Positions 44,784-64,000 of a DNA stretch of 64,000 nucleotides are shown one piece after another (within the stretch, counting starts at the first letter, position 1; each line of letters begins with the position of its first letter). The notes beneath the pieces are model-generated. The model was not told where the DNA came from, did not search any database, and saw nothing but the letters and a program-made list of their open reading frames with translations. Source of the stretch: Peribacillus frigoritolerans (lineage in GTDB: Bacteria > Bacillota > Bacilli > Bacillales > DSM-1321); contig NZ_KV440950.1 in the NCBI RefSeq assembly GCF_001636405.1, positions 3,700,778 to 3,764,777 on the forward strand, given 5' to 3'. The translations under genes and the position numbers were made by a program.

Positions 44784-45949
44784 TTAAATTATTTTATAAT
44801 GAAGAAGTTTATTCATACAGGCAACAATCGCCACTTTGGCTAGCTTTCCTTCCGATTTTTTCTTATCAAAGAAAGCTTTAAGCTTTTTGTTCCTTGAACT
44901 CCTTATGCCGCATAGTACGGCAAGATACAGAGAATGACGTAGTCTGCTCGAACCTCTTTTCGTAATACGATTAATGGTTGCCGTAAACTTACCTGATGAG
45001 TGAACACTTGGATCTACTCCAGCGAAGGCAACTAGTTTTTTCGGGTGATTAAACCGATCGATTTCACCAATTTCAGAGATAATCGTGGCTGCGATTTTCT
45101 CTCCGATACCGGGAATCGATTGGATAATCTTATATTCTTCCAGTTCATTTGCCAGGGCCACTATACGATCTTCCAAATCAGAGAGGTGTCCCTGGTAATG
45201 AAAAAGCAACTCAATATACATACGAAGATTGATTACGTGACTTTGATACACGTTTATTTGAAATGGATTTCGAGACGCGGAGTCCATTTTTTTTTTGCTT
45301 TTTCCCATGCCCATTGACCCGATCGGCTAGGACAGAACTCTATAACACTCTCTGCTAGTTTACTTTCCCCGGCTGTTAATACCGCCTCTGAAGTGGGATA
45401 TTCCTTTAATATCAATAAAGAAACCCTTGAATATAGATCACCAAAAACCTTCCGGTATTCAGGAAACACTTGATCTAAAATGGTGTGAAACTGAAGTTTA
45501 GCTTCCACATACATATTCGTTACGATTTCCTGTTGTCTGGACAAATTCCGAAGGTCTAATAGCTGAATTCCTCTAATTTTATGAGGTTTTAAATCCTCTT
45601 TGTAATACAGCACACACAACTGGGTACGCATCGATAGCATCCGTTTTCACCTTCCGTAGCTGGACTTCTTTGCCTGATAAGAAATAATCGGATTTAGTAA
45701 GATATATGGAATCCCTTGTTCCTCCAGGTATTGAATAACAGGAGAATGGTAATGCCCTGTAGATTCTAAAATGGCCATAGGCATTTGCCCTGTCACCTCT
45801 TCAATTTCTTTTAGAAATTCTAAAAAGTGATCTAACTCCTCTTTGATATGCTTCATTGAAAAGCTCTTCCCATACGGTTTAGATTGATCTAAAAATGCCT
45901 GAACTTGGCTCTCTCCTTTTGCCACATCCAGACCAACAACTGGATTCAT
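44784..45949 (-). pseudogene. IS110-family transposase, copy 1 (broken)
   Basis: The minus-strand product begins MNPVVGLDVAKGESQVQAFL (RuvC-like DEDD domain) and contains the C-terminal transposase_20 region IIQSIPGIGEKIAATIISE and VDPSVHSSGKFTA with the catalytic Ser. Compared with copy 2 (62255-63433) it has a 1-nt deletion near 45655, a 1-nt insertion near 45630 and a 1-nt loss in the A-run near 45292. Its last residues (KLLHYKII) differ because the element is truncated near 44805. Non-functional. Confidence 0.88.
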
Positions 45950-46212
45950 TGTTTTTTCCTCCTCTACTTACTAACCAGTACCCCTAGGCCTCCATGTAGT
46001 GTCATAGCTTCGCTTGTTATTCGAGATCTGCGTCCCAACCAGCCTCAAACATGTTTCTACAAGTAGGGGGCGGACAGTTTAGTTCACGGGATCAAGTTCC
46101 ACGCACCCGTATCCTACCCTGGCTACTGATATAATAGATTCTATTAAAAAAAGGTCAACCAATAAAAACTGGCTAACCTTATATTACGAACGCACCCGTT
46201 AGTTTAAGTACA
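45950..46212 (-). ncRNA. Non-coding leader of IS110 copy 1; candidate bridge-RNA locus
   Basis: The 260 nt upstream of the transposase are almost identical to 63434-63692 of copy 2 although they encode no protein. IS110-family elements of the IS110 group encode a bridge RNA between the element's left end and the transposase. The segment includes stem-forming motifs (GTCATAGCTTCGCTTGTTAT, GTAGGGGGCGGACAG) and ends at a CGCACCCGTTAG box after a GGTCAACCA ... TGGCTAACC hairpin. Confidence 0.45.
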
Positions 46213-48380: not shown

Positions 48381-49675
48381 CTATGCGACTGTTTGATGTA
48401 CCATAAATGTTGCCATATAAGGGATATCCATTAACATCTTGTCTTCTTGAAACGTAAATTGTTTTTTACCGATTGAAAACAGAATTCGAATAAGCTTGTT
48501 ACACAAGGCTATCAGAGATTGCATTTTTTTTAATGGATTCTGAGCACGTGTTGTGTAATATATATGGAGAGCTTTAAAAGCCTTGTTCTTTGCCACCAGT
48601 ATCATGGCTGCCCGGAATAAGAGAGCCCTCAATTTCTTTCGTCCCCGTTTGGTAATCTTAGTCTGACCTTTGTGCTTTCCGGATGTGTTTTCTTTTAAAC
48701 TTAAACCTGCTAATTTTACGATTTGGCGAAGATGTTGATAGTCTCTGAGGTCGCCGACCTCTGCGAAAAACCCTGCTACAGTATCTCGACCAATCCCTGA
48801 CACCTCTAACATCTGTGTGACACCTGGGATATGGTCTAATAACTGATCTAATTGATAATCTAATTCTTCGAATTTCATTTGAATAAAATTATACTTCTCT
48901 AATAAGGCTCTCAACTCTAATTTCGCCATAGCTGCCCCTTGACGAATACCAATCGAACGATTGGCTGCTTCTTTAAGTGCTCGTATCTTCTTTAAGCCTA
49001 TACTGCGTTTTACCACTTGTCTTAAGGAAAGTAAGAGCTCTTCATCCGTATATTAACAAGTTCATATGGCAAGGCTTCTAGCTTTAGAAAATGAATAGCT
49101 GCCTTGCCTTCCCAACTTTTGAACACCGTCAAAAATTCGGGAAAGTAACGATCAAGCCAGTTATGAACTTGTCCCTGAACGACCTGTAAGTCAACGTTGA
49201 GAAGATCGCGAAGTTTTTTTGCCACTCGGAGTTCCGCATAATTTCCTTGTGGAATTGTTGGTTCGGCGTATCTTCCGTCCTTGACTAACTGTGCGATGAC
49301 TTTTGCATCTTTCACGTCATTTTTTGTAGGTGAATTATCGTCTAATTCTTTACTTCGTTTAACATGTAGTGGATTGACAGATACGAACTTAATATTATTC
49401 TCTTTTAGAAGATGAGCTAGATTTAACCAGTAATGACCAGTGGGCTCCATGCCTACAATCACTTGATTTAGCTTACACTCTTTAACAAGTTGATTAATCC
49501 AATCTAGAAACGAATGAAATCCTGCTTTCGTATTTTCAAAGAAACACGTTTTACCCAGTTCCAATCCTCTAAAATCTTGTGCTCTCGCGACATGATTGTG
49601 CTTGGCGATGTCAACTCCGACAATTAAGGTTTCAGAAGTAATTTGAGTGATTTTATGATTTTGGTTATAATTCAT
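48381..49675 (-). pseudogene. IS110-family transposase, second type, frameshifted
   Basis: The N-terminal frame (49022-49675) has the DEDD domain start TLIVGVDIAKHNHVARAQDF, VGMEPTGHYWLNLAHLL and KNDVKDAKVIAQLVKDGRY. It ends with SSYFP. A frame change near 49040 restores ELLLSLRQVVKRSIG, and the second frame (to 48381) has LEVSGIGRDTVAGFFAEVGD and KLAGLSLKENTSGKHKG with the catalytic Ser. A single-base loss explains the break. Protein sequence differs clearly from the other IS110-type elements in the window. Confidence 0.87.
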
Positions 49676-50035
49676 TGTGAGGCCTCCGATAGATGTTTTT
49701 GTCCTTTTTAGCTGGCCAGCTCAGGACACATTCATCTTATCAAGAGGTCTTTTTTCGTTCAAACCTCATTTTCAGTTATTACAGGAATGCTGCCCCGATA
49801 GTTCCATTAGGAAAGGGGTTGCTGCAACTCCTGTAATGAAGTAGAGAGCCTTTTAGCTAAAAAAGGGTCATTGGAAGATTAATTGAAGGCTGTTTTCGAA
49901 AAAACTGTTGAAGAAAAAAATCGGCTATTTATTTTTGTAGTATGATGTAAGAACGTTTTTTCAACAACCGAGGAAGTTTGTACAAGAAAGAGCCGGTAGA
50001 TCAAATAATAATTAAACATTTATGAGGTGAACTTT
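49676..50035. other. IS left flank and repeat remnants
   Basis: It contains the upstream end of the IS110-type element and CAGGAATGCTGCCCCGATAG then TTCCATTAGG (about 49775-49803), a relative of the modular repeats further right. It then carries the promoter of the SUKH gene (TTTTTGTAGTATGATG near 49935 may be part of it). Confidence 0.35.
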
Positions 50036-59623: not shown

Positions 59624-59785
59624 CAACTAACCTGCCCCTTTAGTTCCATAAGAAAAAGCTGCCTTATAGACAGCTCCGATCTTCAGCTAACGCACCCGTT
59701 CGTATTATAAGGTCAACCAGAAAATATTTCTGGTTGACCATTTTTTATATCGATATATGATAACCGGGTAGAACGTCCAACCCGT
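59624..59785. repeat. Modular repeat array with two hairpins
   Basis: Read on the minus strand it runs: AACTAACGGGTTGGACG, the hairpin GGTCAACCAG ... CTGGTTGACC, ACGAACGGGTGCGTTAGC, the hairpin AGCTGTC ... GGCAGCT with a T-run, and finally AACTAAAGGGGCAGGTTAGT. Each AACTAACGGG-like box separates a hairpin. It is at the 3' end of the 59803-60213 gene, so the hairpins can terminate that transcript. Confidence 0.65.
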
Positions 59786-59802
59786 TAGTTGATTAAGAAA
59801 AT

Positions 59803-60655: not shown

Positions 60656-60813
60656 TCCCACAAGCATTACAAATTACAAGATTAGTAATGAGAAATACTG
60701 TGCCAATTTCCTTCAATTCCTTTTTTATAGTTTTTATACGTTCCCGAATCAATGATGTTTCAATTCACCCGTTGCCAAATTAACCCAAAAAAGAATGAAA
60801 CCTTATGGAACTA

Positions 60814-60895
60814 TACTGCCCCGTTAGTTCCATAAGAAAAAGCTGTCTTAAAGACAGCTCCGATCTTCAGCTAACGCACCGTTTAGTTGAACAAC
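60814..60895. repeat. Modular repeat with terminator hairpin
   Basis: CTGCCCCGTTAGTTCCATAA, the hairpin AGCTGTCTTAAAGACAGCT preceded by A's, CGATCTTCAGCTAACGCACC, then GTTTAGTTG. This is the most regular copy of the family: two inverted-orientation AACTAACGGG boxes around one hairpin that would terminate minus-strand transcripts. Confidence 0.7.
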
Positions 60896-61347: not shown

Positions 61348-61705
61348 AACACTGTGACTGACCCTCGTAATCGTATCGTTCAGTCTTACTTTAAAAGCGT
61401 CTGTGCTTTCGCATAATCAGAGATCGTTTTTTTGAATCGAATACTGTGATCACCAGATATCCGCCACCTGCATGTTCTCATCCATCATGTATAGAACATT
61501 AATCATTTCGGTTAGCGTTCTTTATACTGAGATTAGACTAAAATCCAAAACGAACATAAGTTTAATCCTGAGGCTGCGTTAAACTGCACTTTAGTGGATA
61601 AGAAAAAAAACCGTCGCAGTGACAATCATCTTGTTCCTAAGCACCCGTTAGCCTACATTAAAAATTCAATTTGTTATTTATTCTAGGGTTGGTTAAAGTA
61701 CTCCT
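61348..61705. other. Intergenic region with a repeat module
   Basis: No gene seen. At 61612-61655 a partial module (TTCCTAAGCACCCGTTAGCC) of the AACTAACGGG family is present. Confidence 0.35.
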
Positions 61706-61795
61706 TCTTCAACAAACCTGCCCCGTCAGTTGCATAAAGAAAGAGCTGCCTTAAAGACAGCTCTGATCTTCAGCTAAAGCACCGTTAGCTCTATT
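61706..61795. repeat. Modular repeat with terminator hairpin
   Basis: CTGCCCCGTCAGTTGCATAA, the hairpin AGCTGCCTTAAAGACAGCT, then CTGATCTTCAGCTAAAGCAC and CGTTAGCT. It overlaps the end of the small gene at 61751-61960, whose last 14 codons are read from the repeat. Confidence 0.65.
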
Positions 61796-61960: not shown

Positions 61961-62059
61961 CTGTCTAACTCCCAATCACTCAATTCTTGTTGCAATAAAT
62001 AGTTTGACACTCCTTTACTTCATATATTAATCCATCAGCAAGGTCTCAATCTTTGTTTA

Positions 62060-62112
62060 ACTATTCTGCCCCGATAATTCCATAACAAAAAGAGCTGCCA
62101 AAGCAACTCTCT
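62060..62112. repeat. Partial modular repeat
   Basis: CTGCCCCGATAATTCCATAA then AAAAGAGCTGCCAAAGCAACT: the right-end module and a weakened hairpin of the same family. Confidence 0.5.
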
Positions 62113-62254
62113 TATTGAAGTAAACCAGCTAATAGGATGTCAATATCTTTCTCTAATATTTTCATTTCCCTTATGATATACCATTTTTGGCCATGCCAAA
62201 TACCCCTCCAAAACCATTTTGGAAGGATTTTTCTCTGTTTCACAAAACCGTTAA

Positions 62255-63433
62255 TTAGGCTAAATCTAGGAACGTTTCTTTTCTGCTTAATAAAGCGTAA
62301 ATCCATTGAAGCAACTTATTCATACAGGCAACGATTGACACTTTCGCAGGTTTTCCTTCTGATTTTTTCTTATCATAGAAAGCTTTAAGCTTTTTGTTCC
62401 TTGAACTTCTTATGCCGCATAGTACGGCAAGATACAGAGAATGACGTAATCTACTTGAACCTCTTTTAGTAATACGGTTAATGGTTGCCGTAAACTTACC
62501 CGATGAGTGAACACTTGGATCCACTCCAGCGAAGGCAACCAGTTTTTTCGGATGATTAAACTCATCGATTTCACCAATTTCAGAGATAATCGTGGCTGCG
62601 ATTTTTTCTCCTATACCGGGAATCGATTGGATGATCTTATATTCTTCCAGTTCATTTGCCAGGGCCACTATTTGATCTTCCAAATCAGAGGGGTGTCCCT
62701 GGTAATGAAAAAGCAACTCAATATACATACGAAGATTGATTACGTGACTTTGATACACGTTTTTTTTGAATGGATTTCGAGATGCGGAGTCCATTATTTT
62801 TTTTGCTTTTTCCCATGCCCATTGACCCGATCGGCTAGGACAGAACTCTATAACACTCTCTGCTAGTTTACTTTCCCCGGCTGTTAATACCGCCTCTGAA
62901 GTGGGATATTCCTTTAATATCAATAAAGAAACCCTTGTATATAGATCCCCAAAAACCTTCCGGTATTCAGGAAACACTTGATCTAAAATGGTGTGAAACT
63001 GAAGTTTAGCTTCCACATACATATTCGTTACGATTTCCTGTTGTCTGGACAAATTCCGAAGGTCTAATAGCTGAATTCCTCTAATTTTATGAGGTTCTAA
63101 ATCCTCTTTGTAATACAGCACACACAACTGGTACGTATCGATAGCGTCCGTTTTCACCTTCCGTAAGCTGGACTTCTTTGCCTGATAAGAAATAATCGGA
63201 TTTAGTAAGATATATGGAATCCCTTGTTCCTCCAGGTATTGAATAACAGGAGAATGGTAATGCCCTGTAGATTATAAAATGACCATAGGCATTTGCCCTG
63301 TCACCTCTTCAATTTCTTTTAGAAATTCTAAAAAATGATCTAACTCCTCTTTGATATACGGTTTAGATTGATCTAAAAATGCCTGAACTTGGCTCTCTCC
63401 TTTTGCCACATCCAGACCAACAACTGGATTCAT
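62255..63433 (-). pseudogene. IS110-family transposase, copy 2 (nonsense mutation)
   Basis: Closely matches copy 1 at 44784-45949 but keeps the full C-terminus (ACMNKLLQWIYALLSRKETF). It starts MNPVVGLDVAKGESQVQAFL at 63433. Relative to copy 1 it has an in-frame 24-nt deletion near 63357, and a Glu codon changed to TAA near 63273 (TTA on the plus strand), which stops translation. From 63157 down the frame is open, with KTDAIDTYQL, IQSIPGIGEKIAATIISE and VDPSVHSSGK. It was probably active recently. Confidence 0.88.
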
Positions 63434-63692
63434 TGTTTTTTCCTCCTCTACTTACTAACCAGTACCCCTAGGCCTCCATGTAGTGTCATAGCTTCGCTTG
63501 TTATTCGAGATCTGCGTCCCAACCAGCCTCAAACATGTTTCTACAAGTAGGGGGCGGACAGTTTAGTTCACGGGATCAAGTCCCACGCACCCGTACGTCC
63601 TACCCTGGCTACTGATATAATAGATTCTATTAAAAAAAGGTCAACCAGTAAAAACTGGCTAACCTTATAATACGAACGCACCCGTTAGCCAT
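63434..63692 (-). ncRNA. Non-coding leader of IS110 copy 2; candidate bridge-RNA locus
   Basis: Nearly identical to 45950-46212, with a 4-nt insertion (CGTC after CACCCGTA). Both copies end at the same CGCACCCGTTAG box, after which the sequences diverge, marking the element boundary. Conservation without coding capacity fits a bridge RNA of the IS110 group. Confidence 0.45.
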
Positions 63693-63699
63693 CCATGAA

Positions 63700-63947
63700 G
63701 CGCAAAAATCAGCGCTTCACCACAGAGAATGAAAATGGTTCAGAACGGTCAATTCTGATTCTACGGCTGGGAGAGGAAGGTCGATGAACTATGGTGCGTT
63801 AGAGCCCATCCGTTAGTCTGACTCCAACGACCAAGGTGCACCACTGACTGTCGCTCCCTTACGGGAAGCACACATGGTAGATTAATCCTATTCTGGTTTT
63901 TGCACCAGCCTCCAATTGTATTGAGAGCCGTAGAAAGGATGTTTTCA
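63700..63947 (+). ncRNA. Non-coding leader of a third IS110-family element
   Basis: About 250 nt directly upstream of a new IS110-type start contain several self-complementary segments (GCGCAAAAATCAGCGC, GCTCCCTTACGGGAAGC) and no frame of its own on the plus strand. A bridge RNA is expected here for the IS110 group. A 78-codon minus-strand frame is judged spurious. Confidence 0.4.
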
Positions 63948-64000
63948 ATGGAAGTAGTCATTGAAAGAGCATGTGGTATGGATGTCCATAAGGACAATAT
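63948..64000 (+). CDS. IS110-family transposase, 5' end only
   Basis: ATG 63948 behind GAAAGGATG encodes MEVVIERACGMDVHKDN before the window ends. The ER(C/A)CG(M/L)DVHKD start is typical of IS110-family (IS116/IS110/IS902) transposases, with the first DEDD Asp in MDVHKD. It is a third, distinct IS110-type element on the opposite strand. Confidence 0.8.
   Translation, partial: MEVVIERACGMDVHKDN

Follow-up and report, generated by a model that had tools for sequence, protein, structure and literature searches.

A predicted bridge RNA in two decayed IS110 elements of Peribacillus frigoritolerans and its target boxes in large oriented gene arrays

The stretch of Peribacillus frigoritolerans DNA analysed here (contig NZ_KV440950.1), hereafter referred to as the window, comprises 64,000 nucleotides and lies at 3.70-3.76 Mb of the 5.46-Mb genome. 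It contains two copies of IS-A, an insertion sequence of the IS110 group that measures about 1.55-1.62 kb. Both copies are located on the minus strand. Copy 1 (44796..46190) has lost its right end and carries a frameshifted transposase gene; its low end is approximate, being the limit of homology. Copy 2 (62124..63676), delimited from junctions aligned against 80 loci and from tblastn, has both ends and an interrupted transposase gene. Compared with the intact relative L063 of 400 amino acids (aa), the transposase of copy 1 is split over three open reading frames (ORFs) and aligns in two frames (residues 1-220 and 211-385), while that of copy 2 is alignable over residues 1-400 in one frame, its longest ORF measuring only 300 aa. 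The IS110 domains PF01548 (DEDD, RuvC-like) and PF02371 (Transposase_20) were detected in the pieces of copy 1, one of which falls under the PF01548 cut-off, and in copy 2. Among named relatives, those closest to the transposase come mostly from Peribacillus.

Upstream of the transposase gene, IS-A carries a noncoding region of ~240 bases, measured from the element edge to the start codon, which is conserved in relatives. The two leaders (45950-46202 and 63434-63688) are identical in 250 of 255 alignment columns (98.0%), and the coding parts are less alike (1083 of 1163 columns, 93.1%). A preliminary description of this DNA, made from the letters alone, had pointed to the near-identical leaders and to the damage in both transposases, and both observations were borne out. 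The family search covered 43 genomes, and relatives of the leader are present in 38 of these, with 0-20 matches per genome when fragments are counted; the 80 loci fetched are part of all leader matches.

Aligned junctions place the element edges at 46190 (copy 1) and 63676 (copy 2). As described before, both leaders run into a common box, CGCACCCGTTAG, found on the plus strand at 46191..46202 and 63677..63688; it lies just outside the element and constitutes the target half next to each copy. At the right end of copy 2, the second half of the interrupted target repeat, including a terminator and a second box, is found at 62052..62123 (plus strand). In the aligned junctions the element start, TTCGTATTATAAGG (also given as TTCGTATTAT), and the element end, CTATTAGCTGGT, are fixed, and the core is TT. 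Of the 82 junction rows, 54 are full-length elements in which start and end were both recognised; the others are truncated, contig-cut or not recognised. The window holds eight matches to CGCACCCGTTAG with at most two mismatches (1.3 expected), and the P. frigoritolerans genome contains 16 exact copies of the 13-mer ACGCACCCGTTAG, compared with 0 for the reversed control. The left target half is variable: it reads ACTAACGGGTGCG in the window subfamily, CTGCCCC in a subfamily with ~79% similar leaders, and CGCACCC, CGCCCCC, AGCGCCC, CTGGCCC or CCCGCCC in further elements.

A comparison with empty sites, which the preliminary description had recommended, yielded 43 contexts, covering 23 of 133 element ends, in which relatives of the flanks are free of the insertion sequence (IS). 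The majority of these, though not all, hold the full box, as in AACTAACGGGTGC-GTTAGTTGATTAAG (flank identity 98%), and the flanks past the box differ between element copies. Because IS-free relatives of the flanks hold it, the box is assigned to the target; of the two origins considered earlier, a part of the element end is contradicted by the position of the box outside both edges. Relatives in Paenibacillus, Lysinibacillus, Neobacillus, Alicyclobacillus and other genera (L247-L305) likewise occupy box-like targets, with the spacers GCGCCC, TGGCCC, GCACCC and GCCCCC, and box-like sites may therefore be widespread in Bacillales.

The bridge RNA predicted in the leader spans 63459..63614 in copy 2, its limits being the closing stem of the consensus fold, and 45975..46128 in copy 1, at the same alignment position with 98% identity (both minus strand). 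Of 62 non-redundant leaders picked, 52 were aligned for folding. The RNAalifold consensus consists of a 5' terminator-like hairpin, a closing stem, a target loop that carries the left and right guides on its two strands, and a donor loop. Its 34 pairs are formed in 98.8% of cells, and 10 of them have changed on both sides. None of 500 shuffles attained any of five measures, and slid structures paired in just 28-49%. Compensatory change is strong at columns 87/255 (GC 23, AU 21), 101/150 (AU 42, GC 10) and 119/132 (AU 34, GC 12), and the fold with its compensatory changes is kept across many genera. An Rfam scan of the window at gathering scores gave no match.

The predicted guides were located by covariation with the target. 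The left target guide, ACGGGTGCG, lies at 63586..63594 in copy 2 and 46102..46110 in copy 1; the right target guide, GAACTAAA, identified in a wider element set, lies at 63562..63569 and 46078..46085 (all minus strand). All leader columns were scanned in 68 non-redundant of 79 elements, the place of the guide not being assumed. Identity with the left target reaches its maximum on a single diagonal, at 1.456 (mean 0.022 and standard deviation 0.143 over diagonals), against at most 0.468 in 100 permutations. In a second set, 61 of 80 loci were usable; it also includes Peribacillus, and 51 of its elements, numbered L241 or above, are nearly all from other genera. In these 51 further elements the left guide agrees with its target at 6.53 of 8 bases (better of two registers), compared with 4.24 after permutation and a permuted maximum of 4.88 in 2000. 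The right guide, scored in 57 of the 61 elements, agrees at 3.54 of 5 bases against 2.71 permuted (0/5000). Examples are L117, with right target TTTTAGCAAC and right guide GTTGCTAAAA, and L138 and L263, in which CGCCCCTG and TTTTCTTCA, respectively, occur in guide and target alike. Several window-type elements occupy targets that differ from their own guide at two positions or more.

Insertion leaves the left guide and the left half of the target as a direct repeat ~91 bases apart. In five of 16 truncated loci fetched (L306-L310), precisely the stretch between the two has been lost; four different flanks are represented, one of them common to L308 and L310. This direct repeat appears to be an inherent weak spot in elements of this kind.

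The conserved fold with compensatory pairs and the covariation of the left guide with the left target agree with the earlier proposal of a bridge RNA in this leader. Very probably, the IS-A leader encodes a bridge RNA that guides insertion into TT-core boxes bordering array genes. The RNA would comprise a closing stem, a target loop with the left (ACGGGTGCG) and right (GAACTAAA) guides, and a conserved donor loop. By analogy with published IS110 work, IS-A would circularise, its joined ends forming the promoter TTGACA-18-TATTAT; this circle-junction pattern is present in 52 of 54 elements when near matches to the first hexamer are allowed, and with exact TTGACA in 48. Recombinase and RNA would then pair with both halves of the AACTAACGGGTGCG-TT-AGTTCAATAAG box and insertion would occur at its TT core. 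The box is one of two quasi-palindromic boxes around a terminator in repeats that lie between genes of the large oriented Peribacillus arrays described below, and IS-A would therefore be specialised on the borders of gene units. We infer transcription, ribonucleoprotein function and transposition of IS-A.

Several observations weigh against this interpretation. Both window copies are dead insertions. Ten of the 62 leaders were excluded from the fold set, partly for their degraded look, and the donor loop is nearly invariant and gives little covariation support, so that donor pairing is judged by identity. In the guide scan, the wrong-strand control likewise exceeded its 100 permutations (0.478 versus at most 0.371); the permutation is therefore uncalibrated for relatedness, and it is the margin over the control that counts. 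Moreover, the right guide was not significant in the 68-element Peribacillus scan (8 of 100 permutations), and the left guide of the CTGCCCC subfamily fits with a one-base shift.

Two other explanations of the leader were considered. That it is conserved merely through recent duplication, the box being a terminal repeat of the element, would suit the identity of the two window copies in the leader (98.0%) and the coding part (93.1%), but is extremely unlikely given compensatory fold changes over many genera, differing flanks past the box, a box that varies with the guide and IS-free relatives that hold it. Alternatively, the leader RNA might be a regulatory attenuator of the transposase gene without any guide. 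The leader does contain a terminator-like hairpin before the bridge RNA (63637..63666, minus strand; found by pattern scan and corresponding to helix 1 of the fold) and two promoter-like patterns, one of which, TTGACC-16-TATTAT (63617..63644, minus strand; pattern only), stands directly before the bridge RNA and overlaps the 3' arm of the hairpin. An attenuator, however, would not need to match the insertion site, whereas guide columns track the target both in the 68-element scan and in the 51 further elements, and we consider this explanation very unlikely; the hairpin may still be regulatory.

IS-A itself is a further case of a known IS110 kind, while the gene array is unusual. In the part of the published account considered here, IS621 and other bridge-RNA elements of the IS110 group (Durrant et al. 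2024, PMC11208160) resemble IS-A in their DEDD transposase, in a long noncoding end upstream of it, in an RNA with target and donor loops, in targets that lie in repeats, and in a left guide resembling the left target and a right guide complementary to the right target. Within the same part, IS-A differs in its core, TT instead of CT (CT core guides were selected in that study), in its target, a gene-array repeat box instead of the Escherichia coli repetitive extragenic palindromic (REP) element, and in the terminator-like hairpin ahead of the RNA. The seekRNA elements ISKpn4, ISPst6, ISPa11 and ISEc21, as covered by the portion of Siddiquee et al. 2024 (PMC11187229) considered, also pick their target through an RNA from the noncoding region and form a promoter at the circle junction. 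ISKpn4 and ISPst6 target one end of the attC sites of integron cassettes and are the closest ecological match to IS-A; these attC-targeting elements are of the IS1111 type with the noncoding region downstream of the gene, in contrast to its upstream position in IS-A, and the boxes used by IS-A differ from the canonical attC sites that they target. Together, the IS-A relatives provide a natural series of bridge RNAs with guides tracking targets across many genera. Their ends, core and IS-free sites have been mapped, and the series is useful for selecting and testing programmable recombinases.

The IS-A target box belongs to a larger dispersed repeat that had escaped the preliminary description. 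The 16 genomic copies of ACGCACCCGTTAG fall into two clusters, each on one strand; two are IS-A ends, and most of the other 14 are part of a repeat composed of AACTAACGGGTGCGTTAGCTGAAG, a terminator hairpin and TTATGGAACTAACGGGGCAGGTTAGTTGAA. The box is quasi-palindromic, its arms CTTATTGAACTAAC and GTTAGTTCAATAAG flanking a GC-rich spacer of 6-7 bases. Intact box-terminator-box repeats are located in the window at 60803..60894 and 61705..61792 (plus strand). The clusters form two arrays in the P. frigoritolerans chromosome (G000:C1), at 1.019-1.172 Mb (L142-L149) and 3.741-3.909 Mb (L150-L158, the array of the window); arrays of relatives are L176-L195. At E 0.01, the repeat profile detected 77 copies per 160 kb in the first cluster, 20 per 244 kb in the second, and 80 (180 kb), 107 (160 kb) and 56 (60 kb) in stretches of G008, G031 and G025 selected for dense matches. 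The repeat model matched 41 of 43 family genomes at 1e-4, with at least 64 copies in 16 genomes and up to at least 94 in a genome (no more than 94 candidates scored per genome), and 20 of 249 sampled genomes of the order at 1e-6 (16 candidates scored per genome). This model (R1) effectively amounts to a sequence profile, since misalignment of the hairpins had left the first consensus fold of the repeat with three pairs only.

Virtually all repeats (339 of 340) are oriented on one strand of their own array, and intervals of 150-4000 bases contain a median of one ORF, which is the layout of an array of oriented gene cassettes. The largest ORF follows the repeat orientation in 226 of 275 intervals and is on the opposite strand in 49. 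Ten array genes picked by eye encode two GNAT acetyltransferases, two small multidrug-type proteins, a VanZ-like protein, a hydrolase, a PhzF-like protein, two proteins with domains of unknown function and one protein without a database match. When up to three arm mismatches are allowed, the array regions contain 373 boxes and the reversed sequence seven; the 124 box matches outside detected repeats are an upper figure, as the looser cut also matches control sequence.

Comparison of five array regions from four species revealed 141 non-redundant homologous blocks, 134 of them on the same strand. Of 66 block pairs at most 1.5 kb apart in one genome, 20 are neighbours in the other genome too. 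Block order is partly conserved (rho 0.45, 0.41 and 0.88 in the three best-covered pairs), which therefore indicates gene clusters within a common backbone and not a random order. Chance-corrected repeat identity was determined for 48 pairs at 3' block edges and 50 at 5' edges; only four repeat pairs lie inside a kept block. At 3' edges, identity is 0.74 before box 1, 0.57 (0.36 to 0.77) in its left arm, 0.03 in its spacer, -0.04 in its right arm and 0.00 in the repeat middle. At 5' edges, it rises from 0.01 in the left arm of box 2 to 0.23 in the spacer, 0.35 (0.19 to 0.50) in the right arm and 0.62 after the box. Repeat identity thus breaks inside the boxes, and the repeat middle is co-inherited with neither neighbour. 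The break is less than clean, given that 3' edges also show 0.27 (0.09 to 0.49) in the right arm of box 2 and that some far segments fall under zero, and the interval for the box 1 spacer is too wide for placing the exchange point or the neighbour with which the spacer travels. A repeat or box is found no more than 30 bases from about 35% of block edges, compared with 13% of random positions; with ~65% of edges away from boxes, most block edges are therefore unexplained by them. Site-specific recombination may lie behind the shuffled genes.

The integron integrase IntI (TIGR02249) was found over the cut-off in none of the 43 family genomes, weaker matches occurring in all 43. The core sites of attC follow the consensus RYYYAAC and GTTRRRY. 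Among repeats with letters at these positions, GTTRRRY is present in one of 253 and RYYYAAC in seven of 219. The repeat consensus folds in an attC-like manner with unpaired central spacers, four single repeats displayed forming mostly separate hairpins; mean folding z-scores of the repeat DNA are -2.6 for the top and -1.7 for the bottom strand (40 repeats), which we do not count as proof. As the integrase and attC consensus tests fail, the array was not classified as an integron; it may still function in that way.

A scan of five tyrosine recombinases over ~280 aa in the P. frigoritolerans genome returned XerC, XerD, a 326-aa protein and XerA/XerC-like proteins. A 280-aa XerA/XerC-like enzyme (G000:C1:5458554-5459363) has relatives in 31 of the 36 genomes that belong to the genus; two near-identical 283-aa relatives are encoded at 3624580-3625428 and 3853435-3854283 of G000:C1. 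With the 283-aa query, matches at 1e-30 were obtained in 31 of 43 genomes, which are those 31 of the 36 of the genus. Repeat counts, which are lower bounds, are higher in carriers (median 64 versus 7; Mann-Whitney p 0.001, uncorrected for kinship and for the limit of 94 candidates), also within the genus (p 0.008, likewise uncorrected). Two carriers, G009 and G012, have zero repeats, and the recombinase gene is not adjacent to the arrays where positions were compared. This nearly genus-wide enzyme is a weak candidate for the box recombinase.

We tentatively propose, with a little under an even chance of being right, that Peribacillus possesses an integron-like cassette system, in which a site-specific recombinase exchanges partners at the boxes and IS110 lineages with reprogrammed guides are parasites. 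Gene units and the terminator unit would be delimited by palindromic boxes and would exchange partners there, and several IS110 lineages would retarget their bridge RNAs to each box spacer variant. A considerable but smaller chance goes to the repeats being ordinary REP-like terminator repeats, with neighbourhoods differing through the usual gain, loss, rearrangement and intergenic breaks: gene order is partly kept, with the correlations given above, most block edges are more than 30 bases from a detected repeat or box, and a leading-strand gene bias could orient terminators. Such an origin is harder to reconcile with repeats that keep the array strand where the largest ORF of the interval opposes it, with the sharp shift of co-inheritance between the two arms of a box, and with boxes that lack a terminator (at most the 124 outside repeats). 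It is unlikely that the IS110 elements themselves shuffle the arrays, through homologous recombination between boxed copies or through their own recombinase, with no separate cassette recombinase. Three IS110 lineages in the window do adjoin box centres, where identity also breaks, but the 0-20 leader matches per genome, a count for the IS-A lineage, contrast with up to at least 94 repeats, and the repeat middle moves with neither neighbour.

The arrays resemble the pdif modules of Acinetobacter plasmids, in which genes are flanked by short sites whose two arms enclose a variable spacer; they differ in being chromosomal and of one orientation, in having other arms and in showing no link to Xer. 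In the open-licence literature searched, four box strings matched the text of no paper, and none of the papers listed describes the box-array system in its title or abstract opening. Sedentary chromosomal integrons and clusters of attC sites lacking integron integrases (CALIN), as treated in the portions of PMC9024848 and PMC8618304 considered, share with the Peribacillus arrays their length, mostly single genes, one orientation and a repeat after each gene in which a variable hairpin is enclosed by two arm-spacer-arm boxes. Measured against these portions, the arrays are set apart by the absence of an integrase over the cut-off, by repeats that depart from the attC consensus, and by both boxes looking like exchange points. 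According to the relevant part of the IntegronFinder 2.0 report (PMC9024848), Firmicutes have one complete integron and a few CALIN, complete integrons being extremely rare in the phylum. Large, apparently shuffled gene arrays in a relative of Bacillus are of interest against this background; if the recombinase is found, they would represent a new route of gene exchange in these bacteria, with IS110 elements marking its sites.

Two further IS110 lineages are present in the window. IS-B (63689..64000, plus strand), of which the left end and gene start are seen, runs past the window and directly abuts the box of copy 2. Its left end follows GCACCC, CTGCCCC or GCCCCC boxes in most of the 18 contexts displayed. 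IS-A and IS-B stand back to back in a single box at 63677-63688, and also in L089, L236, L241 and L244. IS-C (48381..49789, minus strand; low end provisional) comprises two ORFs, and its leader side adjoins a CTGCCCC-type box at about 49789; ends matching IS-C were found next to L114, L123, L125 and L131. A search for mini-elements gave four pattern matches: an unrelated gene, the interior of an ordinary leader, and the shortened elements L051 (505 bases) and L053 (397 bases). Finally, a remnant of an IS-A family element occupies 59691-59799, its left end following a CGCACCCG box and its guide region jumping directly to TTAGTTGATTAAG, the far target half.
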